From Sinohyriopsis cumingii (lineage: Eukaryota; Mollusca; Bivalvia; Unionida; Unionidae): 64,000 nt of DNA. Shown here in pieces: positions 5,395-63,248 of the stretch. The position numbers and the translations under genes were made by a program. The notes beneath the pieces were generated by a model that saw nothing but the letters and a program-made list of their open reading frames with translations, made no database searches and had not been told where the DNA came from. Position 1 is the first letter of the stretch, and the number at the start of each line of letters is the position of its first letter. The stretch covers positions 111,365,214-111,429,213 of the forward strand of contig CM068830.1 in NCBI GenBank assembly GCA_028554795.2, written 5' to 3'.

Positions 5395-6180
5395 GTGATA
5401 TTACAGGAATAAACACCAATATTCACTATTATCTCATATTGATCGAATCAGCATAAAAAGGTATACATCAGTGCACACATTTAAAAAGATATCTTCCTTA
5501 CAAAAAAACCGAACAGAATGAAATTACTCAAAGTATCAGCAAACCTGATACAAAAGAAAAAGACACCTGTTAAAAAGAGACCATATAAACGTGTCTCTGG
5601 TGGAATTATAAATGTCAAAATGAACATGTCTTTCAAGAAAGAAAAAACAATTGAAAACTAAGAAAATGCTAACAATATGATAAGGATACACCCATGGGCT
5701 GTAATGGGTGGAATCTGGAGAATATTTATGTTGATCTATAAAAGAAATTAATTTTTAACAAATATGCATACAAATGTACTTTCCATTATTATAAACATTT
5801 TGCAAATATATATGCAGTTTATGAACAAACTATAATATACACTGATATTACTGGCACTTTGAGTTTTCTCCTAGCAGAAATGAATAAACCATTATCAATG
5901 TATGTTGGTATCTATATTCAGTATATAATCAATAAGCCTTAACGGTTCTCAATGACTTAGTAATCATGTTGTAACAAAGCAGCTTCACAGCCATTAGTAA
6001 ATTACTATCAGCCAACATTGGCATAAGTTTTCATTATTTTCCTACTCAAGTAAAATCACAGGGACTTTCGCTGGCCATGGCTTTGGACCAATTTTTTTTT
6101 TTAAAAATACATAAACTGAGTTAATGTTAGTATTGACAATATTAAAAACTTTTCCTAGGTACCAAGGCAATCATGTAATG
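5395..6180. repeat. Segmental duplication, copy 1
   Basis: Collinear with 7585-8345 in the same orientation. Shared landmarks in order are TATCTTCCT, CTCAAAGTATCAGCA, AAAAGACCAT-like, CATGGGCTG, GGTGGAATCTGG, TTTCCATTATTAT, AACATTTTGCAAATAT, CAGAAATGAATA, GACTTAGTAATCAT, CAGTAAATTACTAT and CCTAGGT. Identity looks like 70-80% with many small indels. It codes for nothing recognisable. Confidence 0.8.
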
Positions 6181-7584: not shown

Positions 7585-8341
7585 AATTACAGCAACATCC
7601 TCACTGACATTCACTAATATCTCATGCTGCTCTAACCTGCATAACAAAGTACATATCTGCAAAAACATTTAAATGGTTATCTTCCTGAGAATTATTTTTT
7701 AATAGAAATAAATTTCTCAAAGTATCAGCATTAACTCTTGACACATAAGAAAAGGAAACCTGCTACAGTTATATAAAAGACCATGTAAACGTGTCACTGG
7801 AATTATAACTGTAAAATTAAGTGCATGCCTTTCACGGGAAAGAAAAAATGTAGAATATGAGAACAATATTATAATGACGGCTGCACACATGGGCTGAAAG
7901 GGGTGGAATCTGGTGAAGAATATTCACTCTAATATCAAACAATTATTGTGAAATAAAGATGCATAAAAATGTAATTTCCATTATTATTAACATTTTGCAA
8001 ATATGCAGTTTATGTAAAAAGTGTAAGATAGATTCATATTGCTGGCAATGTCAGTTTTTCACATACAGAAATGAATAGGACATTTTCAGTCTATGTTCAG
8101 TAAATAATCGCTAACAGTTAACAATTCTCAGATGACTTAGTAATCATAACGTAGCAAAGTAGCTATACAGATGTCAGTAAATTACTATTTGCCAACAATA
8201 GAATCACTGATGATTATTTTTCCGCTCATGTAAAAATATCACATGGAAAAAGGGAAAAGACAAGAAAAATAACAATATTAAACAGTAACAGCTTTAAGTA
8301 TGCAAACTTAAGTTGCATTTACCTAGGTTCCAATAGTCTGT

Positions 8342-11918: not shown

Positions 11919-11971
11919 CTATGTAAAATATACAATGAATATGAAATGAATATCAACTATTTAAAAGAAGT

Positions 11972-12211
11972 TGTTGTTGCTGTTGTGGCGTTTAACGCCA
12001 TATTTCAGCACATGACAGGCTATGCATGGCAGCCAGTATTAATAGTGCAGGAAAAAAACGGAAAATCCCTGGAAAAACCACCAACCCATGAGAAGCTACT
12101 GGCAAGCTTTCTCACATACCCACGTTAGCCGAATCCTAGTCTCAAAGCCACGCAGACAGAGGTGAGATGGCAGTGATCAGTAACAAAGAGCACTTTAGAC
12201 CACTCGGCCCC
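11972..12211 (-). mobile_element. tRNA-derived SINE with (AAC)n tail, copy 1
   Basis: Flanked by a perfect 12-bp duplication, TTTAAAAGAAGT (11960-11971 and 12212-12223). On the minus strand it begins with a tRNA-like segment (CCGAGTGGTCTAAAGTG), and carries GAGATGGCAGTG and GTGGGTTGGTGG blocks when both strands are considered. It ends GGCGTTAAACGCC followed by CAACAACAAC. It is the same family as 50035-50268, but more diverged, and its A-box region is shortened. Confidence 0.88.
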
Positions 12212-12442
12212 TTTAAAAGAAGTAACTGTCTTTTTAAAAAGAAAATAGCAATGACATAAACATGAAATTATATGAATTTTTCAACCTATATCAAGTGTAA
12301 TCAAAATGAAGTTAATCATAAACACTTCAGAAAACAAACTACTATCTTGGGGTAGAAACGCGTGAACACTTATCAAATTAATATAACTAATAAAATACTT
12401 TCTAGTATATTTTTAATGCTAGCAGTTCTAATAATACCTTAA

Positions 12443-17074: not shown

Positions 17075-17547
17075 ACACACAAATACACCATAAAGTAAAC
17101 CTAAAGAAGTGTAACGATTTGCTATGATTGATTGAGAGGTGAGAATCTCAGTATGTATGATCATCAACTTATCATACACTTTAGTGTTGGATACAAACAT
17201 ATATACACATATAACAATAAAACAAGGTGAGTATGAGTTACAATAGAGACTTTTGTAACCTATACACATACAAAATAAATGTTGGGGAAATTATTTGCCT
17301 TAAAGCCAATCAATCTCTCTCTCTCTATATATATAATTATGACTAAATAGAGATGAACAATTTTATTAATATTTTTATTATGATAATTGATTGATTGATT
17401 ACTTGGATTTATGTTGCATGTGCGCAGAAGGGCATGAGCGACGGGTTTATTTCTGCACAGTAGGATGCTAAATGTTCCTGGGGGAAGGAATTAGTGCCAC
17501 ATCCCCCAAGCGTTTATGTGCTCAAGGAGCACTGCTAATTTAGCCAT

Positions 17548-17579
17548 TAGGTTGTAGGACTATATGCTCTTACAACCTA
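17548..17579. other. Short perfect hairpin
   Basis: TAGGTTGTA (17548-17556) and TACAACCTA (17571-17579) form a 9-bp stem with a 14-base loop. No poly-T or gene end supports a specific role. Confidence 0.5.
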
Positions 17580-17674
17580 AATAAAGGGCTTTCATCAGTG
17601 GGAATGGACACAACACATTCATGTTAACAAGGAGTTGATTTCAGTCCGTTATTGACTGTACTAGGTGTCGACCC

Positions 17675-17757
17675 AAGCAGTATGTAATGCCCGTTGTGAG
17701 TGGTCGCAACGATGAAAGCAGTATGTAACGCTTGTTGTGAGTGGTTGCAACGATGAC
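17675..17757. repeat. 41-bp tandem duplication ending at a CRE
   Basis: Two units begin at 17675 and 17716, sharing AAGCAGTATGTAA, TTGTGAGTGGT and GCAACGATGA with a few changes. The second unit runs into TGACGTCA at 17754-17761. Confidence 0.85.
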
Positions 17758-18249
17758 GTCACATCGGGACACTTAGCTTTAGGTGGATGGATGGAAATTG
17801 TTCCACATCTTCGCTGTTATATGATGTCCAAGAAAGGCAAGATGGCAAAGAACTTGGCAAGCTAGCCATGGATATCATGCACTCCCAAGAACGCCAGCCT
17901 GTACTTAGTCAAATTTAGTCTAGCTGTACTAATGGAAAAAAATGCCAATAATGTGTTAGCCACCTGTGCAGTTGGGTCAGTTCAAAACAAGTTGTAAAAT
18001 TTTCCTATGTCCTAACAATTGTAAAAATTCTAGTACATAGTGTATGTTGTAGATGCCCTACAAATTTTTAATAACTAATATGTTTGAGCGAAATATAAAA
18101 AGTTTGATCACTGTTAGGTCATAAAAGGTTTGAATTTTGAACCGGTGGATTGAAGGATCAAGTTAGTGTATGTAAAAGTTTTATCGAAATGGGATACCAA
18201 GCCAAAATGGTTTCCTAGATAAGAGGCAGTATTGGTAGCCCTTAGAAGG

Positions 18250-19037
18250 ATTTTTTAAGCAGTGGTCTCCCTTTTTTATTCTGCTTCTTTACATTTTTCT
18301 GCAGTCCTTTATCCTCTCCGGTAATTTCAGGGAAATGGTAGCTCTATAGCGTAAAAATGTAGTTAGCTGCTTCTACTAGCTGCTGGACTGGATAGTTCTT
18401 AGAGGCCTCTTGATAGAATTGTATAAGGATTCTGACACCGTAGTGACACTCGTTATTCATTTGTTTTTGCTTTTATTTATGTTAGATGTTTCATGCGTGT
18501 GTTGGACGCTTACTTGTGTCAGACTGAGGCATGGGAGGTAGTGACCAGGAAGGCAGGCGACCATCTGCAGGCAGGAGTCTGCTCATTCCAGGGTACTGGT
18601 CTAAATGGATGTACTTGCATGAATTTTGAGTTTTGGTTCTTGTGTCTGAAATTGTTCTAAAGATGAGCTAGGTTGCATTGGATGGAAAACTCTTTGCTGT
18701 TTTAGTGTTAGTATGATTTGTATCAAGAAGTAGGCCGCATTATTACCATGGCTGTCTTTCATGTTAGAGGTAAGAAGAGAGCAGAGAAGAAGATTTTTTT
18801 GAAATATTATTTTTGTAAATTTTTAAGGATATATTTGGGATTTAAGACGGGAACCTTTGCTGGTTTTAGAGAGTATTTGGGTGGGTTATGTATGTTTTAC
18901 AGGTTCTTTTTTTTAAGCTAGAGGGACACCCTTGCTGAGTCCTCATTTCCCCCATGACCTGTCAAGGGTGCCCGTCTGCTAATGGAAATTTATTTTTAAG
19001 TGAGGTTGGTTTGTTTATTTTATGCTTTTAGGGTGTT
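18250..19037 (-). other. Probable 3' flank or UTR of the interrupted I-like LINE
   Basis: Non-coding sequence follows the minus-strand stop of LINE-B at 19038. No tail or duplication was found, so the true 3' end of the element is unknown. A plus-strand 67-codon frame at 18718-18921 is not recognisable. Confidence 0.3.
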
Positions 19038-19287
19038 TTACATTGTTTCCTTTAGCTTGGATGTGTCTAGGAATTTAAATATGTTTTGGTAGGTCATATT
19101 TATGGTGGGTTTATTATTAAGGAGGAAATCTAGGTAAGTGGTAGGGGATCCAATTTGGGGCGGGGGGGGGGGCAGCTTTTTAAAATTCCATTCTAGCTTC
19201 CTGATATCTTGAGCAGCTATTGAATATATGTGGCAGGTCTTCAATGGTTTTGCAGTGATAGCAATTGATATTTACACTGGCTTGGCT
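19038..19287 (-). pseudogene. LINE-B ORF2 C-terminus with CCHC motif
   Basis: On the minus strand the sequence reads NCYHCKTIEDLPHIFNSCSR, a CxxC...HxxxxC zinc motif typical of the C-terminus of RNase H-bearing I-like LINEs, then a tail ending FLDTSKLKETM and a stop at 19038. There is one frame change after the zinc motif. It continues the reading of 24801-25040 (which ends in KTKLEGSFGKHL), so the two pieces were contiguous before LINE-A inserted. Confidence 0.75.
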
Positions 19288-19507
19288 TCATTATCAAAAA
19301 ATGGCCGCCATGGTATGAGACTCTTAACCAGCTCCTGAAACATTCGGAAATACAGCTGTACAGAAGAAAATATACTAGTTATAAGTGCTACCAGCAACTA
19401 ATTTAGGCAGTGCAAAAAGTGTCAGGGTAACTTAGTAAACTCAGTCTGTGGATATAAGTACAGATTTGCATTTTTGCATATTCAGACAAAAGAACAGTAA
19501 AACAAAT

Positions 19508-21382
19508 ATGGCCACTTCTTCACTGTCTCAGTGGATCTACTCATATTTCAAATCAGATTCATCAGATTCATTTTCAGGATTTACCCAAGATGATCTCTTA
19601 AATGATACAAAGGATATAGACACACTCAATACTGCAGAGAAATATTCACTTGAAATAGATTCAACCTACCAAGATTGTGTAACACCAAAATCCAACATGG
19701 CTGACTCCTCTGACTCCTCTTCAGTTCCAAGCTTTCTTAAAATCCAACATAATATGCAGAGTATAACAATCACAGCTGACTCCAACAATATTCCAACAAT
19801 CAAGAAATTCTTGGATGAGAATCTACACTTCCAGCAGGGACACTCACACAATGGACTGATCTATAAATCCATGGATACAGATTCTGCCACAGTAACTCTA
19901 TACATAACAACTGGTAAAATTCATGTACAAGGGCCAGGCTATACAGAATGGGTAAATTATTTTATCAGCACTTGGCAGCAAATGGTAGACATCACCAGAT
20001 TGAAATCAATTACCTCTCAGCCAAGGGCTTCAACACCCATCCCTGAAGCCCACAGATTTCCAAATCCAGTCAACAGTAACACAGCTTTACATGAAATAAG
20101 CCAGATTGCTATCAATGTGGAGGAAACTCCAGGACCCCAGTTTATGACAGGTACAACAAATTCCTCTGAGTTCCATGGAACCCATAACCAGCCTTGTACC
20201 TCCATACAGTGCTTAGTAGTGATAGGTATTCTCCAGGCCCAATTAGAAAGGTTAGAACAGGAACTCTCTGCACTAAAATCAAAGAGTCTACACAGTGTTC
20301 AAATGGATAAACCAGGTGCCAAAAAAGTGTGCCAGAAAACCCAGACAACACAATACACAAACATGTCAAAGGACCAGAAAGCATGTCAGGGCACTCAGAC
20401 CATACCAAAACCAGCTATTAGAAAAAACTCATTATGCACACAAACAGATGCAACCACACCAATTAAACAAGATGAGTCTCTTCTACAGGTATTAGATGGG
20501 CAGAGCCAAAAGTTAGCTAAAGCACATGCTGTAAACACTGACCATCATGTGTCTCATTCGACATCAAATCCAGGTACTGAAGAAACTGTTCTAAAGACAA
20601 CCTCCAATTACCCACAGCAAGGAGCTAAATTAAATACAAATGCTAAATACAGCAGTCACCAAACTTTCATTCAGTCTAGTCATGGAAATCAAGAAGTTCG
20701 AACAATGCATCTGAACCCCCCACTGGTCAAAATCAACAACATAGTTAAAGACAGATCTCTTCTCATAGGATCATCAATAATCAAAGGAGTAAGAACAAGA
20801 GGGTTATATAAAACTGATGTAAAAACTCATAGAGGTGCTACTATTAACACTATTACAGTAAAAATATTGGAAATGGATATGTCACCATATCATATTGTAA
20901 TTCTTCTCATTGGTGGCAATAATTACAGTAATGGCCAATCTTTGAAGGGCATTGAGGATGATTATGAAAGTTTGTTGTATGCCATCAGGTCCAAAAACGC
21001 AGAGTGTAAAATAATCATCTCAGGTCTACCGCCAAGAAGGGATGCACTTATGACTCAACTAAATGACACCCTAAGTATGTTGTGTGAAAATTTCCAAATA
21101 CTCTTTGTTCCGCAATACTGGACCTTCTTCAAAGACAATCGAGTGAACCAACAATTGTACCAGCGAGACCAAATCCACTTGACCAACAGAGGTACTGCCA
21201 TGCTCCTTAGGAATATAGACCAGTACATAAGACTTATAAAAGGGGTTAGGCATGAGTCAGACAACTGCTTGTATTGTGGAGAGCACGGTCATGTAACACA
21301 GCGGTGTCTGCATGGAAAACAGATTCGCTGCCATCTTTGTAACGAACTAGGACATAAGCAAAAGTTGTGCACATACCAATAG
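19508..21382 (+). CDS. LINE-A ORF1 protein: SGNH esterase domain plus two CCHC knuckles
   Basis: 624 codons from ATG 19508 (context AAATATGG); the frame opens earlier, but only at a GTG. Residues about 75-145 form an N-terminal domain (SITITAD, NGLIYKS, ATVTLYITTGKIHVQG) that recurs in LINE-C and LINE-D. It is followed by a Gln/Thr-rich linker. The SGNH-like domain starts RSLLIGSSIIKG (Ser block), then VILLIGGNNYS (GxND-like, with Asn-Asn), IIISGLPPR, and DQIHLTNRGTAML (Asp-His block). The C-terminus carries CLYCGEHGHVTQRC and CHLCNELGHKQKLC, two perfect CX2CX4HX4C knuckles. The known role of such ORF1 proteins is RNA binding and chaperoning; the esterase function is unproven. The terminal TAG (21380-21382) is followed in frame by the ORF2 N-terminal extension. 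Confidence 0.9.
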   Translation: MATSSLSQWIYSYFKSDSSDSFSGFTQDDLLNDTKDIDTLNTAEKYSLEIDSTYQDCVTPKSNMADSSDSSSVPSFLKIQHNMQSITITADSNNIPTIKKFLDENLHFQQGHSHNGLIYKSMDTDSATVTLYITTGKIHVQGPGYTEWVNYFISTWQQMVDITRLKSITSQPRASTPIPEAHRFPNPVNSNTALHEISQIAINVEETPGPQFMTGTTNSSEFHGTHNQPCTSIQCLVVIGILQAQLERLEQELSALKSKSLHSVQMDKPGAKKVCQKTQTTQYTNMSKDQKACQGTQTIPKPAIRKNSLCTQTDATTPIKQDESLLQVLDGQSQKLAKAHAVNTDHHVSHSTSNPGTEETVLKTTSNYPQQGAKLNTNAKYSSHQTFIQSSHGNQEVRTMHLNPPLVKINNIVKDRSLLIGSSIIKGVRTRGLYKTDVKTHRGATINTITVKILEMDMSPYHIVILLIGGNNYSNGQSLKGIEDDYESLLYAIRSKNAECKIIISGLPPRRDALMTQLNDTLSMLCENFQILFVPQYWTFFKDNRVNQQLYQRDQIHLTNRGTAMLLRNIDQYIRLIKGVRHESDNCLYCGEHGHVTQRCLHGKQIRCHLCNELGHKQKLCTYQ

Positions 21383-21595
21383 GTAGAAGGCTATGATGTA
21401 CAGGCCTATGCAACACATATCCAGCAACAAAATGCATTAGAATATGTGTATACTTTTCAATGCAATAATTATAATTCTATAAACAGGTTTCAGGCACTAT
21501 CTGATTTGTGTACAAAGTGCAACTTGTTAACATGTAAACAACTGTGTGATACTGTTCAAGTTACTTCTCCCTCTGAGGCCCCCCAAGTGTCTAAT

Positions 21596-24500
21596 ATGTC
21601 AATGTCTTCTTGTATGTATGTAAATCAGTCTCATATTGAACATTCTCAAATATCCACTACATGTGGTCATGGTACAACAGATGGATCTTGTATGTTATCT
21701 TCTTCATATGTTTATGTAAATAATCAAGGCAATGTAAAGAAATCTGTCAAGTCTAAAAACAATACATTGCCTAGTGCCTTGTCTGAAGATCAATCCTCTG
21801 ATCAAAATTGTCATGTATATTCAACACATCATCCCTAAACTGAATGAGATAAAGTCAATATTACAGCAAACTAGATCAGTCAATATTCTAGGTCTATGTG
21901 AAACCTTTCTTTCCGACGATACTGATGATTTGGCTCTCCAAATACAGGGGTTCAGCTTTGAAAGAAAAGATAGGGAATCCATGGGGGGTGGGGGTATTCT
22001 TCTCTATGTAGACAGTTCCATTAGTTATAACAGACGTGTTGATCTAGAGACTATTGGGGTAGAGAGTATCTGGATCGAAGTAACCCTTGCCCAATCAAAG
22101 CCAATACTCTTATGTTCGGTTTACAGGCCACCTAGTTCCACAGCTGATTGGATTGATAGATTTGAGGTTCAAATTCAAAAAGCATTACTTAAGGAAGATT
22201 TAGAAATTATCGTATTAGGTAATTTTAACATTGACTATATGAAAACTCCACCATTAACATGGATAAGTAGCTTTGAAACTTACAACTTTACTCAATTAAT
22301 TAACACCCCAACTAGAGTAACGGATAAAAGTGCTACTATCATTGATCATGTCTATACTAATAAACCTGAAAACGTAAGTGAAATTAAGGTACCAGTGTAT
22401 GCACTGAGTGACCACTTCCCAGTCTGTATAACTAGACATGTTCCGAAATCATCTAAAAATGGCCAACACATTGAAATTCAATACAGGGACTTCAAACAGT
22501 TTGATGAGGAAATGTTCTTAAATGATTTAGTTTGCAAACCTTTCCAATCAGTCTGCACTATAGCTGATGTCAACACTGCCTTGGACAAATGGTATCAGAT
22601 GTTCAATGCAGCCTTAGACAAGCATGCCCCAATTAAAACAAAAAGGGTTAAACACCAAATTACACCCAAGTGGATTACCCCTGAGATCAGTGAGGCTAGG
22701 CACCTAAGAGATAATTTCCACAAGAAAAAAGACATGAAAAGCTATAGAAAGTGGAAAAATAAAACTAAGCACCTGATAGATAAGGCAAAAGAGAACTACT
22801 ATAAACAGGCTATTAATGAAAGTAAGAGTACCAAAACATTGTGGAAGCATCTAAAAGAGCTGAACCCACGCAAGAACAGTTGTCTTCCCCCTAGACTTAA
22901 GCAAAATGATGATATAGCAACATCTGTACAAGACATTGTGGAAATGTTCAACAATTTCTTCATAAGCATCTCCAGTAAGATTATTCAGAACCAGACTAAT
23001 ATCCCAATTGAACTTGATGCTCTTCTATTATTTATAAAAGCTAAAATTCCTGATGATAATTATTTTTCAGTAGCTAATGTTAGTGAAGCTGATGTTTTTG
23101 ATATGCTAATTAAGGTTAATATTAATAAATCCTCTGGATTGGATGGTATTGGTCCACGAATTCTTAAAATTGCTGCACCAGTAATAACAAAGTCACTAAC
23201 GCATATTATAAATTTAAGTATAATGAGTGGTAATTTTCCAGAAACACTGAAATGTGCAAAGGTTACACCTATCTTTAAGAAAGGAGAAAAGGAGGATCCA
23301 GGAAATTACAGACCAATATCAATTCTACCTGTATTGTCAAAACTATTTGAAAAGCATGTAGCCATTCAGGTCTATACATTTTTCGAAACATACTCTCTAT
23401 TTGATAAAGCTCAGTCAGGATTTAGAAAGTACCACTCGTGCCAAACAGAACTTACCAAATTAATTGATCTTTGGCTGAAGGAAATGGATAATGGACATAT
23501 GACTGGGATTGTTTTCCTTGACTTCAAGAAAGCCTTTGATCTTGTTGATCATGAAATTCTGCTGCAAAAGTTGAACTGTTACAGATTTGACAATCCTTCT
23601 TTAAACTGGTTTAGATCATACCTAAACCAAAGGTCTCAACAAGTAAGCATTGGCAATATTAGCTCTCAGACTCACACTATTCATTCAGGAGTCCCTCAAG
23701 GCTCAGTTTTGGGCCCTCTCCTCTTCCTTATCTATATCAATGATCTACCATTAAATAATGAATCCACAAACACAGATTTGTTTGCAGATGATGCAACTTT
23801 GTATACATCTAGTTCTGATACTGAATTTATCCAAATGAAATTAAACTCAGACCTTATCAGAGTCCAAAACTGGGCACAACAAAATAGGATGGTAATTAAT
23901 GAAGGTAAAACAAAATGTATGATTTTGGGGACATCACAAAAACTACCAAGTCAGGGAACCCAAAACTGTCTCTTGCAATAAATAATCATCCATTAGAAAA
24001 TGTCAAACATGAAAGGCTTGTAGGTGTGTCTGTAGATAATAATTTATTATGGAATGACCATATTGATAAGCTTTGTAAAACACTGTCATCCAAAATTGCC
24101 CTTCTCAGCAGAATCAAGAAATATTTACCTATGGAAACTCGCAGTCTATACTACAAGTCATATATTCTTCCAACAATGGATTATTGTTCTAATGTATGGG
24201 GAAACCGTGCCAAATCTGAGCTTGACAGGATTTATAAACTTCAGAAACGAGCAGCACATGTAATTTTAGATGCATCTGTTGATCATCCCTCAAAAACATT
24301 ATTTACAGAACTCAAATAGTTCACAATATATGACAGGATAGATTTTCACAAGGCAGTTCTTTTATATAAATGTCTACATGGAACTGCGCCAGAGTATCTT
24401 CAAGACTTATTCAGGCCTTTTTCAGCACAATACCAGTTGAGATCAATATCACATGGAAACCTTCTAATACCAAAACCAAGAACAGAGCAATTTAAAAAGA

Positions 24501-24619
24501 GTTTTCAATACTCTGGTACAGTTCTGTGGAATAAGCTTCCACTACATGTAAAATCTGCTGAAAATATTAGAGTATTTAAGAAAAGATATCATGAGCATGC
24601 ATGTGTTTCTAACAGATAA
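21596..24619 (+). pseudogene. LINE-A ORF2: APE endonuclease and reverse transcriptase, lightly broken
   Basis: The frame is open from just after the ORF1 stop. Its first in-frame ATG is 21596. A frameshift near 21805-21825 leads into the endonuclease: IIPKLNEIKSIL, ILGLCETFLSDD (catalytic Glu), LLCSVYRPPSS, VLGNFNIDY and ALSDHFPV. The usual GDFN Asp is Asn here. RT follows: GLDGIGPRILK, NYRPISILPVLSKLFEKH, FLDFKKAFDLVDH, SGVPQGSVLGPLLFLIYIND and LFADDATLYT (catalytic FADD about 23780). A second frameshift near 23945 leads to LVGVSVDNNLLWNDHID and the C-terminal thumb. A TAG at 24317-24319 replaces a likely Trp. The frame ends at 24619. The host role is none; in the element it performs target-primed reverse transcription. 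Confidence 0.88.
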
Positions 24620-24764
24620 TGGAATTTAGTATTTTAATACTAAACATGTTAAAATAAACAGTAATTATTGCCATCTTCATATAATGTGCATTGTTATACT
24701 CTCCTTAAGAGGGCCTCAAGGGAGAATAGTCCTTGACTAATGAGTCACCCTCTATAAATAAAGC

Positions 24765-24800
24765 ATTATTATATTATTATTATTATTATTATTATTATTA
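24765..24800. repeat. (ATT)n tail of LINE-A
   Basis: A trinucleotide run at the 3' end of LINE-A; the fragment at 42514 ends in a similar run. Confidence 0.9.
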
Positions 24801-25700
24801 GATGTTTGCCAAAACTTCCTTCTAATTTTGTTTTTCCGGTTACGATGCGATTGATAATTTTGTGGTCCAGGCTGTTCACTTTGGGTGGTTTGATGGGCAT
24901 TTTGGTTTCCTTTATAATGGAGTAGAGTATCCTGCCTTTGGTAGTGGGATTCCAGTGCTCCTGCCAGTTCTGGTTAATGTAGTTTCTTGTTATGCTTTGG
25001 GCTTATGTTATGCTATATCTGAGTGGTGCAGGGTTAGGGTTCCCTAACATGTTTTTGCGACTTTGTTGGCTAGCTTATTACCAGGGATTCCTATATGCGA
25101 GGGTATCCACATGAATTCAACTATCTGATCCGCTGTGGATAATTCCCTAAGCATATAAAAAGCTCTAGCCAAGAATTGTTCTCTTGGTTTGGTGCTGTGA
25201 GATTTGATGGATTCTATTACACTAAGTGAGTCACTGATGATAACTGCTTTTGGAACTTTTTGGTCTTTAATCCATTTTAATGATTCTTTTATTGCCCAGA
25301 ACTCTATGGTAAAAGTAGAGCAGTGGGCTGGTAATCTGGGTCCCATTTGTATGTTGAATTCGGGAATAACCACTGCAGCTGCTGTTCTGGAAGGTTCGGT
25401 TGTTTTGGATCCATCAGTGAATATTTTTACGAAGCCAGAGTAGGTGTCTTTTATTTCCATTCCTACGATGGTTTTGAGTTTAGATTCTTGTTCCAATTTG
25501 CTTCCATAATTCGTGACTCTAGTGTTAATCCTAGGGATAGGGTTTGTCCAAGGGGCGGGGTCAATAGAGTGAGTGTACTCTTTTTGTCGAGCAAGTGTTG
25601 GCATATTTTCCTTGAGTTTTAGGATTTGTTTGCCACCTGGTAGGTTAGGAACTAGTTTGCGGCTAAACGGTTTGTTGCATTTGCTAATTGTTAGTAGCAT
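24801..25700 (-). pseudogene. LINE-B ORF2: RNase H domain and downstream linker
   Basis: Minus strand 25700-25044 encodes an RNase H domain: VKIFTDGSKT (first Asp), CSTFTIEFWAIKESLKWI (Glu), AVIISDSLSVIESI (second Asp) and WIPSHIGIPGNKLANKVAK (His; the fourth acidic position is Asn). Sequence to 24801 continues as NQNWQEHW, GRILYSII and KTKLEGSFGKHL, after a frame change. RNase H after RT marks I-like LINEs (I, Nimb, Ingi, R1/LOA relatives). It is cut at 24801 by LINE-A and resumes at 19287. Confidence 0.85.
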
Positions 25701-42032: not shown

Positions 42033-45000
42033 ATAGTTTTATGAGTTTTGAATTTTACAGCTGTTTTCAAGCCAGATTAGGAAAATAGGGTAGTGATCGC
42101 TAAGACCTGCCCTTGGGATATGTATTTTTATCACATTCTCTTTCATATTTGTAATGATATGATCTAAAAGTCAGTTTTTCATGTTTGTCCACTAACTGGG
42201 TTAGACCAATTGTTTCTGTGAAATTCGGCCAGTTTGTTAATCTGATATTCATAAGATCTCTGTTGAAGTCACCTATAATTCATTTTGGTCATCAGTCACT
42301 TTAGTTGCCTACCGAAATGCTTATTCCATTTAACCTTCGCTGAAGGGAGTCTATAGACAAAGCTCAATATTAATGGCTTTGTATTTTATTGATTTACCTG
42401 GATCCATATTTCTTCAGTATCATCTGATTCTAGATCATTTGGCCTTTCAACTGATAATCCATTACCAAAATAAACAACACTTTCACCCCTTGAACCTCTG
42501 TCACGCCTGATTGATCTTCAGGACTTATTCAGGTCTTTTTCAACACAATACAGTTGAGATTAATATCACATGGAAACATTCTAATACCAAAACCAAGAAC
42601 AGAGCAATTTAAAAAGAGTTTTCAATACTCTGGTACAGTTCTGTGGAATAAGCTTCCACTGCATGTAAAATCTGCTGAAAGTATTAGAGTATTTAAGAAG
42701 AGATATCATGAGCATGTGTATGTTTCTAATAGATAATGGAATTTAGTATTTTAATACTAAACATGTTAAAATAAACAGTAATTATTGCTATCTTCATGTA
42801 ATGTGCAGTGTTTTACTCTCCTTTAAAGGGCCTCAAGGGAGAATAGTCCTTGACTAATGAGTCACCCTCTATAAATAAAGCATTTTTATTATTATTAGTA
42901 TTATTATTGGTGTGCCATAACATCAATAAACAAGTCATTTGCATGATTATCATTTAACTTTGTTTCTGTTAAACCTCGAATATAGACATTATTAACCTTA
43001 GATGATAATAAATTCATTTGGCCTAATTTGTTATTCGTACCTTGTATATTTATATGCACGATGTGTAGACCTCTTTATTTAATTATTAGATCTTAAATGT
43101 CCTTAAAATAAATATTACTAGAGTTTCAGACAAGGAGTTTTCCGCCATGACATTTTTGCTTTTTTTTGTAGGATGCAAGTATTTGTTAAAACATTTACAA
43201 ACATAATATACTTCCACTTTCAAAACATCCATTACAGTTGTCAGTTTGAGAGATAACATGTTCAGCTGAGTTCCCCAAAGGAAACCACATGGGCATCATG
43301 ACCCAGTAAAGTTCCCAATGTTTGTCATGAAGCAGTTGAGAAGATATATCTCATCAACAGGTCACTATATTCATAGCCATAAGCCTAACAATTTCTGCTG
43401 AAGGAAACATTTCTCAGTGTTTGGCCTTAAGTCCATATTTCAAACAGTCCTGTCATTGAATTTTCGTGGCATGTCTGCATGCATCAAAGCCATGCCCACT
43501 GGTTCAAGCAATTATAACACATCATTAGTTTCTCTGGTTTTCTGAAAGTGCTGTTTTTGCCCCATCATATATTAGATTACTGGATTGCCTTTGAGTACTG
43601 GAACATGTTCATTTATTGCCTGCAGAAAGTGTGAAAGCCCCTTTTTAAATGGGTTCTCTTCATAGCCATGACGTGTTCAGGCACCAAGCCACACTTTGTA
43701 ACAGGGGCATTTTCAGTGTCAGTCAGATTGTGGTCCCATTCATTGTATAGATACTCTATTAAAGCATTCACATTTTGAAGATCAGTGCCAATTTTCTTGG
43801 AGAAACCGGGCATTGAATACCTTCCAATCTGGGTTGTCCAAGTAGTTGTTATCAAATTCAGAAAGGCCCGTGAAGTATATGACAAGTTCCCACCCCAGGT
43901 AATGCAAGACTTTGACCCAAGGTTTAAGACCTCTTTCAATGACATATTTAATTAATCAGCAGTGTTTGTTTCATGGAAACTTTCTGATGTTTTGGGATGC
44001 ATGATCTTCTTTGATGAGAAGATTCCCAGGTACTGGTATTGGAAAAGTCACGAGTTTCATTGTTAATATTACAACAGTGATGCTGACATTTTAATTACAT
44101 CTTTTGGGGACCTGAGCTTATCTTCATAGAATCATTTTTATGATCTTGATTGACAGAATGCTGTGAGAGTGAAGTTTTTATTTTCAGAACACTTGGAGAG
44201 TGAGGACATGATTGTATGTCCTGTAGTAGAGTTCAGTTTTCAGCATGATTCCATTCTTCACAGAATCACTTGTATGATCTTCATTTATAGAACACTTTGA
44301 GAGTAAGTTTTATTTGCTATGGTTGAGTTAATAGCTTTCAACATGGTGTTGTTCTTCACAATTTTGTCCATAGTACTACTGATCTTTTCATTTTCTGCTA
44401 TGATAAACTTAAGTAGGTCATCAACAGCTGTGACTGTTTCATTGGTTTTCATTACCTTGGTGATATTATCCCTGTACTTTTCAGGTTCTTCTTTTACCAC
44501 ACTTACAATTTAAGTTTTCAAGTTTCTAATGTCTTCCATTATTGGCTAGAGAATTTCAGGATCCATAGCAGTAGAACCATATTTTATTTTGGTTATTTCA
44601 GACAGTGGATTATCTTTGTCTTCATTAAAAAAAGATTCATTTTACTCTTAAGCTCACTGTTTTCCTCTTTAAGGATAAGACAGCGACTCATTGATAGACT
44701 AAGGTGACATTTTACTGTGGTTTTTTTTCAGCGATTCAGCTTTCACCTTCATATTTGAAAATAGTTCAGCAAGCTTGTCATGTCTGTTTTTTGCTGACTG
44801 GTATTTCATTTTCAAACATTCATGTTTGTTTGATACTTTAGTTTGTTGGACCTTCAGTTTTGCAACTTCCTGATGCAATGATTTATTTTCCCTCATTAAG
44901 GCAATTACCTTCTTATCACTTCGGCAGCAATCCCTGTCAGCAGAGAAGTGATTATCGATGGAGCTTCCAGCTGAGTGTTAACATTATCCTTTGTTAGGGC

Positions 45001-49731: not shown

Positions 49732-50034
49732 GTAAGTATTTCTTATATAACCCTCCTAGTTCATATTCCATCGGGTGCAGTACCTGATAGTGTTGCAACT
49801 CTAGGCCTTAAAATATCTAACAGAAAGAATGGGAAACCCAGCAATTTAACAAAAATCAACAAGCAGTTTATTTACCAACAATACAGACTGAAAATACAAG
49901 TGACACTTACAATATTGTGAATTAAATTTAAAATAATCATAAATGTCCTGTCACAAGTCAAGAAATATAGAATGATCCAAATGAATTGCAATGTCTTTAA
50001 TGTCCTGATATAACACAGTGATGCTGTTGTTGTT

Positions 50035-50268
50035 GTTGTTGTTGTAGCGTTTAACGCCATTTTTCAGCACAAGATAGGCTATACATGGCGGCCAGTATAA
50101 ATGGTGCAGGAAGAACCCTGGAAAACTCGGGGAAGAATCACCGACCCACGAGAAGCTACTGGCAGGCTTTCCCATGTACCCACGCTAGCCGAGCCGCAGA
50201 CAGAGGTGAGATGGCAGTGATCTGGAATGGTGAGCGCTTTAGACCACTTGGCCACTCGGGGCCCCTGC
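50035..50268 (-). mobile_element. tRNA-derived SINE with (AAC)n tail, copy 2
   Basis: Perfect 12-bp duplication ACACAGTGATGC at 50023-50034 and 50269-50280. On the minus strand the head reads CCGAGTGGCCAAGTGGTCTA then AAGCGCTC, an A-box like tRNA-Leu/Ser. A B-box-like GGTCGGTGATTC follows. The body ends GGCGTTAAACGC, then (CAA)n. Better preserved than 11972-12211, so probably younger. Confidence 0.92.
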
Positions 50269-54484: not shown

Positions 54485-56070
54485 TTGAGGGTCAAACTTA
54501 ATAAATGCAGTATCACTGTGAATATAGATCCACAAAAATTTGAGTTTGTAAAACAGATATTGGATTCAGAACCTTGCATGACTTCATGCAGTTCAAGTGT
54601 ACAAAATGGTATTATCTACAGAACACAAGAGAAAAACACTGTGACAGCTACATTTTATAAAACAACATGTGTCATACATATACAGGGGCTGAACAGTCTC
54701 ACATGGTAAGATCATATTATCTGTAAATGTAGACAGGATGAGAATACCCATGCTAAAGGCAGTTATACGCTGACATCTACACCAATAACTAGATGACATG
54801 AAACAGCTCCTAAAGTCTTTGACCTAAATGACTCGGGCAATAAAATTAACACCCCTCCAGAGTGTCAGGCAATTACACGCTCCATAAATCATGACTACAG
54901 CAGTGATTGCTTAAGCCTTAATGATTTATTCATGTGTGTACATAAAAAAACAATTAGGAAATTGGAGACCCAAATCAAGAATTAAAACTACAGTTACATG
55001 ATATTAAGTCAGCACAGGGAAGGGTTAATGAGCAAGTAACCTCATGTGAAACAGCAATTCAGACAGACTCCCAAATATCAACAGTATCAGATGCTCAGAC
55101 ACAGACAATTCCAATACCAGCCAAAAGAAAATGTAAAATAACCATGCAAATAAAAACTGATGCCCAAAGTAATCCTGCATTGCAAACAACAGTATCCCCC
55201 TCTCAGTCATGTGTCACACCTGCAACAGCAATAAGTGTACATCCCTGGCCCGCAGTTCAGACAAGTCTGTTACCTTCACCAACAACTGCATTTCCCAGTG
55301 CTCAGACAAATGTGTCAAAATCAACACGAGTAATTCACACAACTGAAACACCAATTTCAGCACCCCTTCCTCCAAGATATGTGTTTGAAATACAATCCAG
55401 AGTCCAACACACGACATCACAAGCCAGAAAAGATAGGACTCTAATAATAATTGGCTCCTCAATTTTGAAAAGTATAATACCAAGGAGACTTTTTAAAACA
55501 GATGTACAGACTTTAAGAGGTACAAAAATCAACAACATCACAGACAGAATAATGAACAGTGACCTAACCAAATACAAACAAATTATTATTTTAGTAGGTG
55601 GAAATGATGCCTGTGTGGGAAGGTCACTAAATCAACACGAAAGAGATTTTGAAAGTTTATTGTATGCTGCTAGGTATTGCAGCCCAAATACATGTAAATT
55701 AATGATATCGGGACTACCTCCTCATGTGGACACCAAGGCTAAAGAAATAAATGATCTGATAATTGACTTATGTGAAGATTTCAACCTACAAGTACATTCC
55801 ATAATACAAATCTTTCTTTCTTCAGAATCAGGATGTCAACCTTAGGCTCTACCACAGAGACAAAATTCATATAAGCAGAAAAGGAACCTCTCAGCTACTG
55901 AGAAATATTAACACGTATGCCCCCATTTTCAAGCACTTTAATGAAGAGTGTGTCTCAACTGTGGAGAAACTGGGCACATGACACAGGTATGCCATCATGG
56001 CAAACAGATCGAGTGTTTTAGGTGCCATAAATATGGACACAAACAAAGACTTTGTCCGTCAATGTATACA
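54485..56070 (+). pseudogene. LINE-C ORF1 remnant: N-terminal domain, SGNH domain, two CCHC knuckles
   Basis: 54485-54709 encodes ITVNIDPQKFEFVKQILD, NGIIYRTQEKNTVTATFYKT and TCVIHIQG, aligned with the ORF1 N-terminal domain of LINE-A. 55144-55845 encodes a Thr/Ser/Pro-rich linker and the SGNH domain (RTLIIIGSSILKSII, IIILVGGNDACVG with intact GGND, LMISGLPPHVD). The Asp-His block lies in another frame near 55860 (RDKIHISRKGTSQLL). About 55950-56065 encodes CLNCGETGHMTQVC and CFRCHKYGHKQRLC. Several frame changes separate the parts. As in LINE-A, the CCHC frame ends at a TAG. Confidence 0.82.
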
Positions 56071-56714
56071 TATTAGGAAGCTGGCAAAGAGGAGAATGCC
56101 AACGCTTCATTTACAAAAAACTCTAAATGTACCCAGTGGGACTCTTGACTCTAACTATTCAATGGACACTATTGTAGATGCAAATGTAAATGGATTTTCA
56201 GGGTTTGTATGTGACTTTGAAGATGCTAATGTATATGAACATTTAAATATAGAAATAGGATGTCACAATGATAAAAGTAGTATGGAGACAATCTCAGTGA
56301 GTACCCCATTGCATGATGACATACATGTAATTGATATGAAACTAAATACAAAAGGTTTTAACATAGGTCACTTAAATGTACAAGGTATAGTCGGAAAGAG
56401 AGACCAGATTAAGTTAATGTTGTCTTCCAATGAAAATAATATACATGTTTTAGGACTCACTAAAACCAAATTAAATGCTAACCACAATGATGATCTATTT
56501 CACTGTCAAGGCTACAGTAAACCATTGCGTAGGGACAGAGAGACAGCGGGGGGGGGGGGTGATCTTGTTGTATACATTAGGGAAGATGTAAATGTAAAAA
56601 GGCGACTTGACTTGGGAGTCACATGAAATTGAGAGTATCTGGGTGGAAATTTTTCAAAATAATGCAAAATCTTTCCTAGCTGGTTTCATTTATAGACCAC
56701 CTTCCTCCAAAGCA

Positions 56715-57037
56715 ACCGCTCTGGTGGCCTAGTGGTTAGAGCATCTGCATCGGATGCAGGAGGTTGTGGGTTCAATCCTTTGCCGAGTCATACCAAAGAC
56801 TTACAAAAACGGTACTTACAGCTACCTCGCTTGGCGCTCAGCATTAAGAGGTTAGTGTTAGGACTGGTTGGCCCGGTGTCAGGATAATGTGACTGGGTGG
56901 GACATCATGCTACATGTCTGCGGCATGATGCCTCAGAGATAGACATCACTATAAACTGCCACATTGCAGACATCGTAACAATATGACTGAAAAATTGCTA
57001 AAGCTACGTTAAAAATCCAAATCACATCACATCACAT
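56715..57037 (+). mobile_element. tRNA-derived SINE, 323 bp, inside LINE-C
   Basis: Flanked by CCTCCAAAGCA (56704-56714) and CCTCCAAGGCA (57038-57048), an 11-bp duplication with one change. The head has A-box TGGCCTAGTGG and B-box GGTTCAATCC. The body contains AAGAGGTTAGTGTTAGGACT and GATAATGTGACT. The tail is (ATCAC)n. It splits the endonuclease reading frame of LINE-C, so it is younger. An older copy is at 478-780. Confidence 0.95.
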
Positions 57038-57417
57038 CCTCCAAGGCATTTTGGAATGATAACTTTTTTAAACAAATGGAAAATGTTCTAGCACAGGAGA
57101 AAGAAACATATATACTCGGCGATATAAATAAGGACCTTCTCAATACTCAAATAAGGAACAACTGGATGGAATTTATTGAATCATTAGGCCTAGACCAGGT
57201 GGTAAATGAGCCTACAAGGGTAACATAAAAATTGAGCACTCTTATTGATCACATTTATACCAACCTACCAGACAGTGTTGCTTGTGTTAATGTACCGAAT
57301 GTTGGTCTTAGTGACCACTATCCTACTTTTTTGACAAGAAAGGTTAAATGCAAGAAAAATAAGAAAAATGCACATAAAACAATCACTTACAGATCGTTCA
57401 AAATTTTTGATGAAGAA

Positions 57418-57562
57418 CAATTTCTCAATGACCTATATAAAGTTCCATGGAGTATGATCCAAAATTTGGATGACATAGATGAAGCCATGAGGGTGTGGAT
57501 TGACTTATTTATGGATGTAGTATCTAAGCATGCACCACTGAAAGTACATTGAGTAAAGACTG
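57418..57562. repeat. 145-bp direct repeat, left copy (LINE-C ORF2 sequence)
   Basis: LINE-C ORF2 DNA present again at 59207-59351 with two differences in 145 bp. It directly abuts the 3' end of the minus-strand RTE-like insertion. Confidence 0.97.
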
Positions 57563-59206
57563 TCTTGGCATCCATCCATCTACGAGAGACGATGGCATAG
57601 CTCCAAAGTACGCTTTTGCTTATCCTTCTTTTTAGCTCTCTTTTCAGCTTGCTTTATTCTTCTCTTTTCCTCTGCGTTTTGAACTCCCTGCCTGACAGCT
57701 AGACGCCAGCTGGAACGGTTGTTTGCACAGCTCTCCCAGTCGTTGACATTGATGTTTGCTGTCTTCATATCCTTCTTGCAAACATCTTTGTAGCGCAGAT
57801 GTGGTCGTCCAGTTGGTCGTGCACCTTCTGCTAACTCCCCATATAACAGGTCCTTGGGAATGCGACCTGGGTCCATTCTCTTGACATGGCCGAGCCAGCG
57901 AAGGCGCCTCTCGCTGAGTATGGAGAACATGCTGTTCATGTTGGCGCGTTCTAGAACCTCTGTGTTGGGTACTTTGTCCTGCCACTGGATGTGCAGAATG
58001 CGCCGCAGACATCTCAGGTGGAAGCTGTTGAGTTTCCTCTCGTGTCTTGCATAGGTGGTCCATGTTTCGCTGCTGTAGAGAAGTGAGCTGAGCACGCACG
58101 CTTGGTAGACACGCAGTTTGGTCTTCTCTGTGAGGTTGGGGTTGTTCCAGACCCTCTGGTTAAGTCTGGCCATCACTGCTGCTGCCTTGGCAATCCTGCC
58201 GCCCACCTCAGAATCAATGGAGAGTGAGCTGGAGATGTTAGACCCGAGGTATGTGAAGTTCTCGACAACTTCCAAATTGTACCCATCGATGGAGACAGAG
58301 GGAGGGGAGTCTGTGTCCTGTGCCATGACATTTGTTTTCTTCAAACTGATGGTCAGTCCAAATTCCTTACATGCATGGGAGAGGCAGCATACCAGCTGCT
58401 GAAGTCCATCTTCCGTGTGTGATGTCAAGGCTGCATCGTCGGCAAAGAGCAATTCACGGATGAGTACCTCTGTGACTTTAGTCTTAGCATGGAGACGGGC
58501 GATGTTGAACAGCTTGCCGTCAGCCCTGGTATGGATGTACACTCCCTCGCTGCAGTCCTTGAATGCGTACTGGAGAAGCATGGAGAAGAAGATGGCAAAG
58601 AGCGTCGGTGCAAGGACACAGCCTTGTTTGACTCCGCTAACGACTGGGAATGCTTCAGATGTTGCGCCATTGAAGCACACTGTGCTGTGCATGTTCTCGT
58701 GGAACGACATAATGACAGCAAGCAGACGTGGGGGGCAGCCGATCTTCTGCAGGAGTCTGAAGAGTCCGCTCCGACTAACCATGTCAAACGCCTTCGTCAG
58801 GTCTATGAAGGCAATGTAGAGGGGCATCCGCTGCTCGCGACACTTCTCCTGCAGCTGACGTAGTGAGAAGATCATGTCTACAGTTGACCTGCCGGCTCGA
58901 AATCCACACTGGGATTCTGGGTAGACGCGGGAGGCTAGGATCTGCAAGCGTGCCAAGGCAACACGGGTGAAGGCCTTTCCGACGATGCTGAGGAGGGAGA
59001 TGCCCCGATAGTTGTTGCAGTCGCTACGGTCTCGTTTGTTTTTGTACAAAGTGACGATGTTGGCGTCATGCATGTCCTGTGGGATGTATCCCTGTTCCCA
59101 GCAAAGGCAGAGGAGTGTGTGTAGGGGCTGGAGCAGTGCTGGTTTTCCGCTCTTGAGGACTTCAGGCGGAATGCCGTCGCTTCCAGGAGCCTTCCCACAG
59201 GCTTGG
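57563..59206 (-). mobile_element. 5'-truncated RTE-like LINE insertion, 1644 bp
   Basis: Minus-strand ORF2 3' part with a short 3' end (CATCGTCTCTCGTAG, then GATGGATGGATGCC). GC content is clearly above the surrounding DNA, which by eye is around one third GC. It is flanked on both sides by the 145-bp repeat. The 5' end starts abruptly within the RT. It is open throughout, so the insertion is young. Confidence 0.9.
57580..59206 (-). CDS. RTE-like LINE ORF2 fragment: reverse transcriptase and C-terminus, open
   Basis: About 540 codons open without a stop. In order: GKAPGSDGIPPEVLK, ANIVTLYKNKRDRSDCNNYR, GISLLSIVGKAFTRVALARL, PESQCGFRAGRSTVDMIFSL, AFIDLTKAFDMVSR, SGVKQGCVLAPTLFAIFFSM, and ELLFADDAALTSH (catalytic FADD). 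Then comes the thumb (VVENFTYLGSNIS, RLRWLGHVKRMDPGRIPKDL) and a Lys-rich end. The family is widespread in animals and often mis-annotated as a host protein. The frame runs open upstream past 59206, but that part is antisense LINE-C and not coding. Endonuclease is absent, so this is a dead-on-arrival copy. Confidence 0.9.
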
Positions 59207-59351
59207 CAATTTCTCAATGACCTATATAAAGTTCCATGGAGTATGATCCTAAATTTGGATGACACAGATGAAGCCATGAGGGTGTGGATTGACTTATTTA
59301 TGGATGTAGTATCTAAGCATGCACCACTGAAAGTACATTGAGTAAAGACTG
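59207..59351. repeat. 145-bp direct repeat, right copy
   Basis: Partner of 57418-57562. LINE-C coding sequence continues from its right edge (DIKPNWLTTEILDAMK), so reading 57562 straight into 59352 restores collinearity with LINE-A. Confidence 0.97.
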
Positions 59352-61340
59352 ATATTAAACCTAATTGGCTTACTACTGAAATCCTAGATGCTATGAAAAC
59401 ACGAGACAAATTCAAGGCTATGGAAAACCATGCACAATATAAAGTATGGAGAAATAAAATAACAGGTATGATTAAAAAAGCATCAAAAATCTTATTATCA
59501 ATCATTGCTTGAAAACAAAAAGAGCAACACAAACTCCATTTGGAAAGTCTTCAATGAACTCACTGGAGGAACACACAAAAAACAGACAAATAAATTCACT
59601 CACTTCTGGTAAATGACACCATAGTCACTGATGAAACTGACATTGCAAATGTTTTCAATGATTTTATCATCAACATTACCACAAAGTTAAAAGAGCCAGT
59701 GATAGAAAACAACTTTAATGAACTGAAAAAGTTCTGCAGCAGCAAAATATTCAAGGAGGTATGTTTCTCTACCCTACCAGTGTCAAAAATCTTTGTTAAA
59801 AAATGTCTCAGTGTACTTGATACCGAGAAAGCTACAGGACTTGAACAGATTGGTCCATGACTCATTAAATCTTCTGCCTTTGCTATTGTAGATAGCATAA
59901 CATTCATAATTAATTTAAGTATTGCAACCTCATCTGTCCCCAAAATATGGAAAACTGCAGAAGTAACTCCTATTCACAAATCTGGTTCTAAGGATGATGC
60001 TGATAACTACCGACCAATCTCAATACTACCAAACTTGTCAAAATTGATTGAAAAACATGTCCATGACTCATTCATGTCATATTTAACCAAACACTTGCTG
60101 TTACACCCTAATCAATCAGGCTTTAGACAGAACCTTTCTTGTGAGACTGCCTTGATCTCCCTAACTGATAAATGGCTTCAAGCACTTGACCAAGGTAGAA
60201 TAATAGAACTGTATTTGTAGATTTCAGGAAAGCTTTTGACATGGTGGATCATGAAATCCTTTTGAAGAAACTGAAAATCTACCAGTGTGATGAAAGAACA
60301 ATTAGATGGTTTACTTCGTACTTAAATGAGAAAACACAGCATATTTACATAAATAATGTTCTGTCTGAACCTGGAACAATTAGATATGGAGTACCACAAG
60401 GCTTAATTCTAGGTCCACTACTATTCATTTTATTTATTAATGACCTACCACTTTTGCTAAGAGACTCAATATCATCTACAGATCTCTATGCAGATGACAC
60501 AATGTTGTCAGACATCCAAAACACAAAGCATGAACTCAGAATTTCTTTACAGAATGCACTTAACAAACTGGAAAACTGGTGTACATGCAATGGCATGGTG
60601 GTAAAACTAAAATATTACTTATCTCAACACGGCAAAGAAGGACAAATCTTGATAGTGATGAACTGTGTCTGACAAGGAAGGATAAAAATTTGCAAATGGT
60701 CTGTCACGATAGACTAATTGGTGTTCTGGTAGATAATAACCTATCATGGACTGAACATACCAAACATACCAGTAAAAAAGTCAATTCAAGTTTATGGCTT
60801 CTCAGTAGGATAAGACATTTTCTCCCTGAAAGGCACAGAAAACTATTTTATAACAGTTGCATACAACCCTATTTGGACTACTGTTGTACAGTATAGGGTA
60901 ATTCAAATGATAAAAACACAGCAAAGACTATTTGGGCTAATATCAATCCAGAAAGAAAGCAAGGAAAGTTTAGCTGGTAGGTTAAAAATATTACCTATTA
61001 AAGACCGAATCTGTTTGAGAAAAGCTAAATTAATGTACAGGATATCTCAGAATAGTGCTCCTGAATATTTGCAATCACCATTCCAGTATAGGCTACCTGG
61101 TAATTCTCCCCACCTGCGATCCATGTCTACCAAACAGTATAAAATTCCCAAACCAAATAAGGAGTTATTTAAAAAAAAAGCTTCCAATACTCTGGAACTC
61201 TACTGTGGAATAGTAATCCAGTTGAGATTAGAAATGCCCACTCTGTTTCTTTCTTCCAAACCCAATATATCCCGTTGTTTTCAGAGATGCAGCTTAAATA
61301 AATTAATTCCTTTGTATGAGGGTCTCAAGGTAGATTAGTT
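59352..61340 (+). pseudogene. LINE-C ORF2: RT and C-terminal region, decayed
   Basis: Pre-RT linker (KPNWLTTEILDAMKTRDKFK), RT fingers (NYRPISILPNLSKLIEKHV, NQSGFRQNLSCETALISL), palm (DFRKAFDMVDHEILLKKL after a frame change near 60210, YGVPQGLILGPLLFILFIND, LYADDTMLSD with catalytic YADD about 60490). The thumb follows (RLIGVLVDNNLSWTEHTKH, SCIQPYLDYCC) and the C-terminal YRLPGNSPHLRSM and KIPKPNKELFKK to about 61340. At least five frame changes or stops. Aligns with LINE-A block for block. Confidence 0.83.
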
Positions 61341-62890: not shown

Positions 62891-62916
62891 AGTTGGAGTT
62901 GCCAGAGTAAAAGACA

Positions 62917-63242
62917 ATGCCGTTTTGCGTTGCTTACGGGTGTAATAGAACATTAAGAAAAGCCTGTGGACAAATTTTTTTTCCCAAAGAAAAAGGCATC
63001 ATGAAAGAATGGGTACATTATTACAAACGAGTCGATTTCAAAGCAACACCATACAGCACTATGTGCTCGTTACATTTCTCAAAGGAATGTTACGAGAGGG
63101 ATCATGAAAAAATAGCAGCTCAAAGATACGCAAATGCTAGGCCTAGACTAAAAGTTGGCGCTGTTCCAGACATACCTTTGGACATTTTAAATCCTGGGAA
63201 AAGAGTTAAACGTGTGAGTTACGAAAATAGACAGAAGGACGA
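62917..63242 (+). CDS. THAP-domain protein, first coding exon
   Basis: ATG 62917 (context GACAATGCC) opens MPFCVAYGCNR. The C2CH zinc signature is complete: Cys4, Cys9, Cys50 and His53 (CSLH), spacing CX4C-X40-CX2H. The conserved Trp (EWVHYY), FxxE-type region after the CxxH (HFSKECYE), and an AVPxIP-like box (VGAVPDIPL) follow, so the whole DNA-binding domain of about 90 residues is present. The frame runs to a stop at 63246, but GTAAGT at 63243 is a strong donor (GACGA/GTAAGT). A second candidate donor, GTGAGT, is at about 63213. The product probably continues in exons beyond the window. THAP proteins are sequence-specific DNA-binding factors, many domesticated from P-element-like transposases. 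Which kind this is cannot be told from one exon. Confidence 0.8.
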
Positions 63243-63248
63243 GTAAGT

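Follow-up and report, generated by a model that had tools for sequence, protein, structure and literature searches.

A 145-bp direct repeat flanking a truncated RTE-like retrotransposon in Sinohyriopsis cumingii is probably a long target-site duplication

Introduction

The duplications of target DNA that accompany retrotransposon insertion have been described with length peaks of 10-12 bp for RTE, 13-15 bp for L1 and 3-5 bp for L2 elements (PMC4245944). The same account gives only 10-20 bp for L1 in DT40 cells, one long truncation excepted, and a range of 8-18 nt has been indicated for human Alu (PMC12633430). Target repeats far above the usual 5-30 bp have been reported for human L1, with duplications of more than 100 bp never exceeding 10% of the events in HeLa cells and making up 57-91% of the L1 events in repair-deficient cells (4/7 in XPA-, 21/23 in XPC- and 22/28 in XPD-deficient cells, all NER-deficient; 3/9 in complemented cells) (PMC5223499). 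These long duplications have been attributed to a distant break of the second strand (PMC5223499) and, in HeLa cells, associated with 5' truncation (PMC2912911), extremely long duplications being mentioned among the target alterations at 5'-truncated L1 copies in those cells (PMC2912911, citing Gilbert et al.). Among 5'-truncated L1 elements of the human genome it is short, not long, duplications that were found enriched, in a survey limited to 5-30 bp (PMC2912911). How the second strand is cut during LINE insertion is debated, the distance between the two breaks being set either by the element, as a fixed offset, or by host repair (PMC4245944, PMC5223499).

As for RTE elements, HmRTE-e01 and HzRTE-1 of Lepidoptera have a reverse transcriptase (RT) followed by a stop codon, a very short simple-repeat tail and a flanking duplication, as in the insertion described here; in HmRTE-e01 the layout is the same down to the order of stop codon, 3'UTR (14 bp, with a simple repeat) and target duplication (PMC2887409). 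The likeness to SR3 of Schistosoma, two copies of which have been reported with 10-12 bp, covers the flanking duplications alone (PMC1291365). The duplications of these lepidopteran and schistosome elements measure 10-20 bp, versus 145 bp at the RTE-like insert of the present case. LINEs of molluscs are covered by PMC3175473 and PMC10294476; neither these nor the Alu lengths given above have a bearing on our verdict.

Here we analyze an insertion found in a 64-kb stretch of the genome of the bivalve Sinohyriopsis cumingii (64,000 nucleotides, hereafter the window).

Results and Discussion

Two copies of a 145-bp segment flank the insertion

Positions 57418-57562 and 59207-59351 of the window are direct repeats of 145 bp, of which 143 are identical. 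The two mismatches (A at 57461 versus T at 59250, and T at 57476 versus C at 59265) correspond to a divergence of 1.4%, with a 95% interval of 0.2-4.9%, and the sequence beyond either end of the repeat diverges immediately on both sides. When the whole window was compared with itself by megablast (95% identity or more, low-complexity filter on), no other pair was listed; an unfiltered blastn self-comparison adds short microsatellite matches to it. A chance origin is ruled out by this result together with the blastn E value of the pair (1.7e-67). The repeats consist of coding DNA of another element, LINE-C, in its plus-strand frame; the first copy adjoins the inserted LINE on its 3' side and the second meets its 5' truncation point. 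An identical in-frame TGA is present in both. That the repeats could be terminal repeats of the inserted element itself is ruled out by their being host LINE-C DNA in frame, and there is no need to postulate a shorter duplication of ordinary length next to the insert, since the repeat is maximal and adjoins it. The duplication would be slightly shorter than 145 bp if the inserted LINE supplied the last bases of the 5' junction through microhomology.

The insert is a truncated RTE-like element

The DNA between the repeats (57563-59206, minus strand, 1644 bp) is a 5'-truncated fragment of an RTE-like non-LTR retrotransposon. Its RT frame (57583-59205, minus strand) is open for 541 codons, contains one FADD box, and matches RVT_1 (PF00078) in Pfam with an E value of 6.6e-34 over residues 57-323. 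It ends in a TAG codon (57580-57582, minus strand), which is separated from the 145-bp repeat by a minus-strand tail of 17 nt, ATGGATGGATGCCAAGA (57563-57579), containing GATG repeats and comparable to the short RTE-type 3' end described in PMC2887409. Ten matches to solved structures were obtained, the top five being four L1 ORF2p and one protein named RNA-directed DNA polymerase, and the lower five R2 or reverse-transcriptase-like proteins. The insert thus encodes the LINE-type reverse transcriptase by which a non-LTR retrotransposon is recognized. It is truncated at the 5' side and keeps its 3' end, RVT_1 starting at residue 57 and the frame leading to the stop and the tail; it has no terminal repeats of its own, the sole long repeat flanking it being host LINE-C DNA. 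An endonuclease domain upstream of the RT is absent from the inserted fragment, which is ordinary for 5' truncation.

A very short 3'UTR after the stop, mostly made of simple repeats, is a feature of the RTE clade, and its presence here, at a putative 3' terminus represented by one copy only, supports an RTE-like identity. The label RTE-like had been proposed in an earlier note on this DNA; the short repeat-type tail agrees with it, and membership of the RTE clade itself is putative. In blastp comparisons with the insert, the two RT pieces of the host LINE-C showed identities of 33% (79 residues) and 24% (103 residues), so that insert and host are different elements. The open frame of 541 codons and the 1.4% difference between the repeats fit a fairly young insertion.

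We looked for relatives of the insert in several collections. Within the 64-kb window sensitive blastn found no second copy, the matches being of at most 31 bases. None was confirmed in viral contigs, where one protein pattern match, unrelated, was obtained and two DNA patterns were also used; none was found in genome contigs (five pattern matches, all unrelated) or in phages, and the viral, genome and phage contig collections may leave out the genome of the window or those very near to it. One distant match (29% identity over 89% of the query) came from a plasmid record that looks contaminated. This record, NZ_CP104070.1 (interval 17442-24803), bears the name of a plasmid of Alicyclobacillus fastidiosus. 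It codes for part of an RTE-like LINE, no more than two features are annotated over its 39.8 kb, and it has the look of contamination from a eukaryote, perhaps a plant. A search of viral contigs with the LINE-C RT piece gave five pattern matches and no relative.

Removal of the insert and one repeat copy restores the host LINE-C

The host element is split by the insertion into a left part (54958-57417, plus strand), with an ORF1 frame followed by a presumed endonuclease/linker region, and a right part (59352-61338, plus strand), in which the frame continues and is followed by the RT in pieces, with stops and frame changes. In Pfam the ORF1 frame (54958-55845) gave sub-threshold matches of GDSL/OSK-like type, and no family was matched by the pieces 55982-56626 and 57229-57552, in the region after ORF1 that we take to be endonuclease/linker. 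The RT pieces correspond to 59861-60220, with RVT_1 below the cut-off, and 60199-60672, with RVT_1 at 8.1e-19. We take LINE-C to be CR1/L2-like.

When the insert and one repeat copy are removed in the model, an empty site is obtained in which the LINE-C frame is unshifted, reading ...HAPLKVH*VKTDIKPNWLTTEILDAMKTRDKF, and continues into KPNWLTTEILDAMKTRDKF irrespective of which copy is kept. Together with the in-frame TGA common to both copies, this points to a single decayed locus as their source, as opposed to two separate LINE-C elements. The boundary at 57562/57563 adjoins the tail that comes right after the stop codon, and the other edge of the insert falls inside the RT-encoding frame, as in 5' truncation. 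The description in the earlier note of 145-bp, 98.6% identical direct repeats around a 1644-bp minus-strand fragment is accurate to the base, with two mismatches between the repeats and a minus-strand RT frame in the insert, and the restored LINE-C collinearity and the abutment of the repeats to the LINE 3' end and truncation point, also proposed there, hold as well.

Origin of the repeat

Our preferred explanation, to which we give a probability of around 70%, is that a 5'-truncated RTE-like LINE inserted by target-primed reverse transcription into an already decayed LINE-C, an element of another type, and generated a 145-bp target-site duplication. This had been suggested in the earlier note, and it best accounts for the LINE 3' end and the 5' truncation at the edges of the repeats, the collinearity of LINE-C and the stop shared by the two copies. 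The anatomy, the exact edges, the restored frame and the common stop are the part of the explanation that can be observed directly.

An error of assembly is the main alternative, unlikely without being negligible. A contig containing LINE-C, the 145-bp segment and part of the insert would have been fused gaplessly with a second contig, or with the other haplotype, starting with the 145-bp segment; the apparent 5' truncation and the point where the repeat begins on the left would then be contig ends and the two mismatches would be allelic. Such a join yields exactly the edges observed, including the end of the repeat at the LINE 3' end, and many invertebrates have a heterozygosity in which a 1.4% difference would fit. 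However, the window is free of N, the filtered megablast (95%) detected no further near-identical repeat across the 64 kb and hence no other sign of false duplication, and 5' truncation plus target duplication is the form expected of a LINE insertion. We regard as quite improbable a repair-made structure, in which a tandem duplication arising by template switching or by fill-in of a staggered double-strand break captured a fragment of LINE cDNA or DNA at its junction, in place of target-primed insertion. Repair synthesis can duplicate lengths such as this one, and insertion and duplication would arise together; but the fragment ends just past the stop with a repeat-type tail, as target-primed insertion predicts, and random capture would seldom produce this.

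The nature of the repeated DNA, which is LINE-C coding sequence and of a type usually present in many copies, could point to recombination of two distinct LINE-C elements, the insert being carried by one of them only. Both repeats nonetheless have the in-frame TGA, unexpected in a working LINE-C, and are 98.6% identical, a second LINE-C copy was not found in the window by blastn self-comparison (E 1e-5), and it would take a coincidence for the repeat to meet the LINE 3' end exactly, so that we hold this origin to be highly implausible. A tandem 145-bp duplication formed beforehand, with the LINE landing later at the boundary, would give the same final structure, but it requires the insertion to have hit one exact position without leaving another duplication beside it, and we find it scarcely credible.

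Returning to target-site duplication, a sequence of events can be proposed. The first nick would have been made in the genomic plus strand after ...GAGTAAAGACTG (position 59351), in the context GACTG^ATATT, and this strand would have primed cDNA synthesis from the 3' tail of the element RNA. Reverse transcription would have ended after about 1.6 kb, and the break in the opposite, minus strand would lie some 145 nt from the nick, at the boundary 57417/57418, following ...GAGAAATTG of that strand (AATTG^TTCTT in LINE sense). Fill-in of both long 3' overhangs would have produced the 145-bp duplications, which may have gained the two substitutions since. The wide stagger could be explained if a nearby second nick failed and a distant or repair-made break was used instead. 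The order of the nicks and the cause of the stagger are what we infer here, along with the correctness of the assembly.

The nick signature described for RTE elements consists of TA at the nick, preceded at a distance of about 10 nt by a stretch of T (PMC13295347). At this locus TTT is found 6-8 nt upstream of the duplication, a triplet present by chance in the -12 to -6 interval of about 15% of the window positions, and the nick falls within T|C where T|A would be expected; the signature is at best half present. Two other features of the junctions were noticed. The sequence AAGACTGTCTT around 57562 could form a hairpin allowing self-priming at the 3' junction, although it is short and may be due to chance. 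The contexts ACTG^ and ATTG^ of the two breaks are alike, AYTG occurring at about 1% of positions; this was observed post hoc and is not evidence.

Other insertions in the window

The flanks of 12 repeat-defined intervals of the window were inspected, and six of the intervals were searched for exact repeats of 7-30 bp lying no more than 60 bp from their edges. Clear duplications, of 8, 12 and 12 bp, were found at three of these six other insertions. The 8-bp one, TCCTCCAA (56703-56710/57037-57044), flanks a plus-strand SINE at 56711-57036 that lies in the same LINE-C and can serve as an internal control. The 12-bp ones (11960-11971/12212-12223 and 50013-50024/50269-50280) belong to two SINEs ending in (GTT)n. 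No clear duplication was detected at the remaining three, starting at 24387, 42504 and 462, the edges of the last one having been taken from a partial alignment. The 145-bp repeat is an outlier within the window, on a very small sample.

Some of these intervals are related to one another. The SINE at 56711-57036 has, by eye, a tRNA-like head, and a tail of ACATC type; no tRNA gene was called there by ARAGORN, and a relative 80% identical over the aligned part is present on the opposite strand at 462-709. The repeats at 11970-12212 and 50029-50256, with (GTT)n ends, are 79% identical and by eye are tRNA-type SINEs. Those at 24387-24793 and 42504-42908, of 0.4 kb and 93.6% identical, end in (ATT)n and may represent the 3' ends of a young LINE of CR1-like type. 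Elsewhere in the window there is a direct repeat of about 0.64 kb with 72% identity, its copies 2.2 kb apart (5421-6064 and 7609-8247), and an open frame with a THAP domain (62911-63246; PF05485, 1.5e-11) which is either a host gene or a piece of a transposase. Rfam and ARAGORN gave no matches anywhere in the window.

Significance of a long duplication at an RTE-like insertion

With 145 bp, the duplication has about ten times the usual length and is far outside the 10-12 bp peak of the RTE clade, a peak that is a statistical tendency and not a strict criterion (PMC4245944). In the parts of the open-licence literature covered by our search we found no report of a duplication above 100 bp for a LINE of this clade. 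Variable and in part long duplications may have been reported for the RTE-1 element of C. elegans. The comparison with human L1 involves another element and another host, as well as experimental de novo insertions with known empty sites, in contrast to the one natural event that is deduced here.

The earlier note had seen in the length of the repeat a hint of an unusual integration mechanism. This goes beyond what one event allows, given that duplications of more than 100 bp are a known minority outcome for L1 and that three of the six other insertions compared in the window have ordinary ones of 8-12 bp. The 145-bp duplication seems to be an uncommon result of a process already known, observed once. 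It seems very improbable that the RTE-like family lacks tightly coupled second-strand cleavage and regularly makes target duplications of at least 100 bp in this host; if that were true, insertion of the family would routinely duplicate short genomic segments. As a single event the duplication is an outlier and not a new mechanism, while a natural, well-bounded duplication of 145 bp at an RTE-like insertion would support, outside L1, a distance between the two breaks that is set by host repair.
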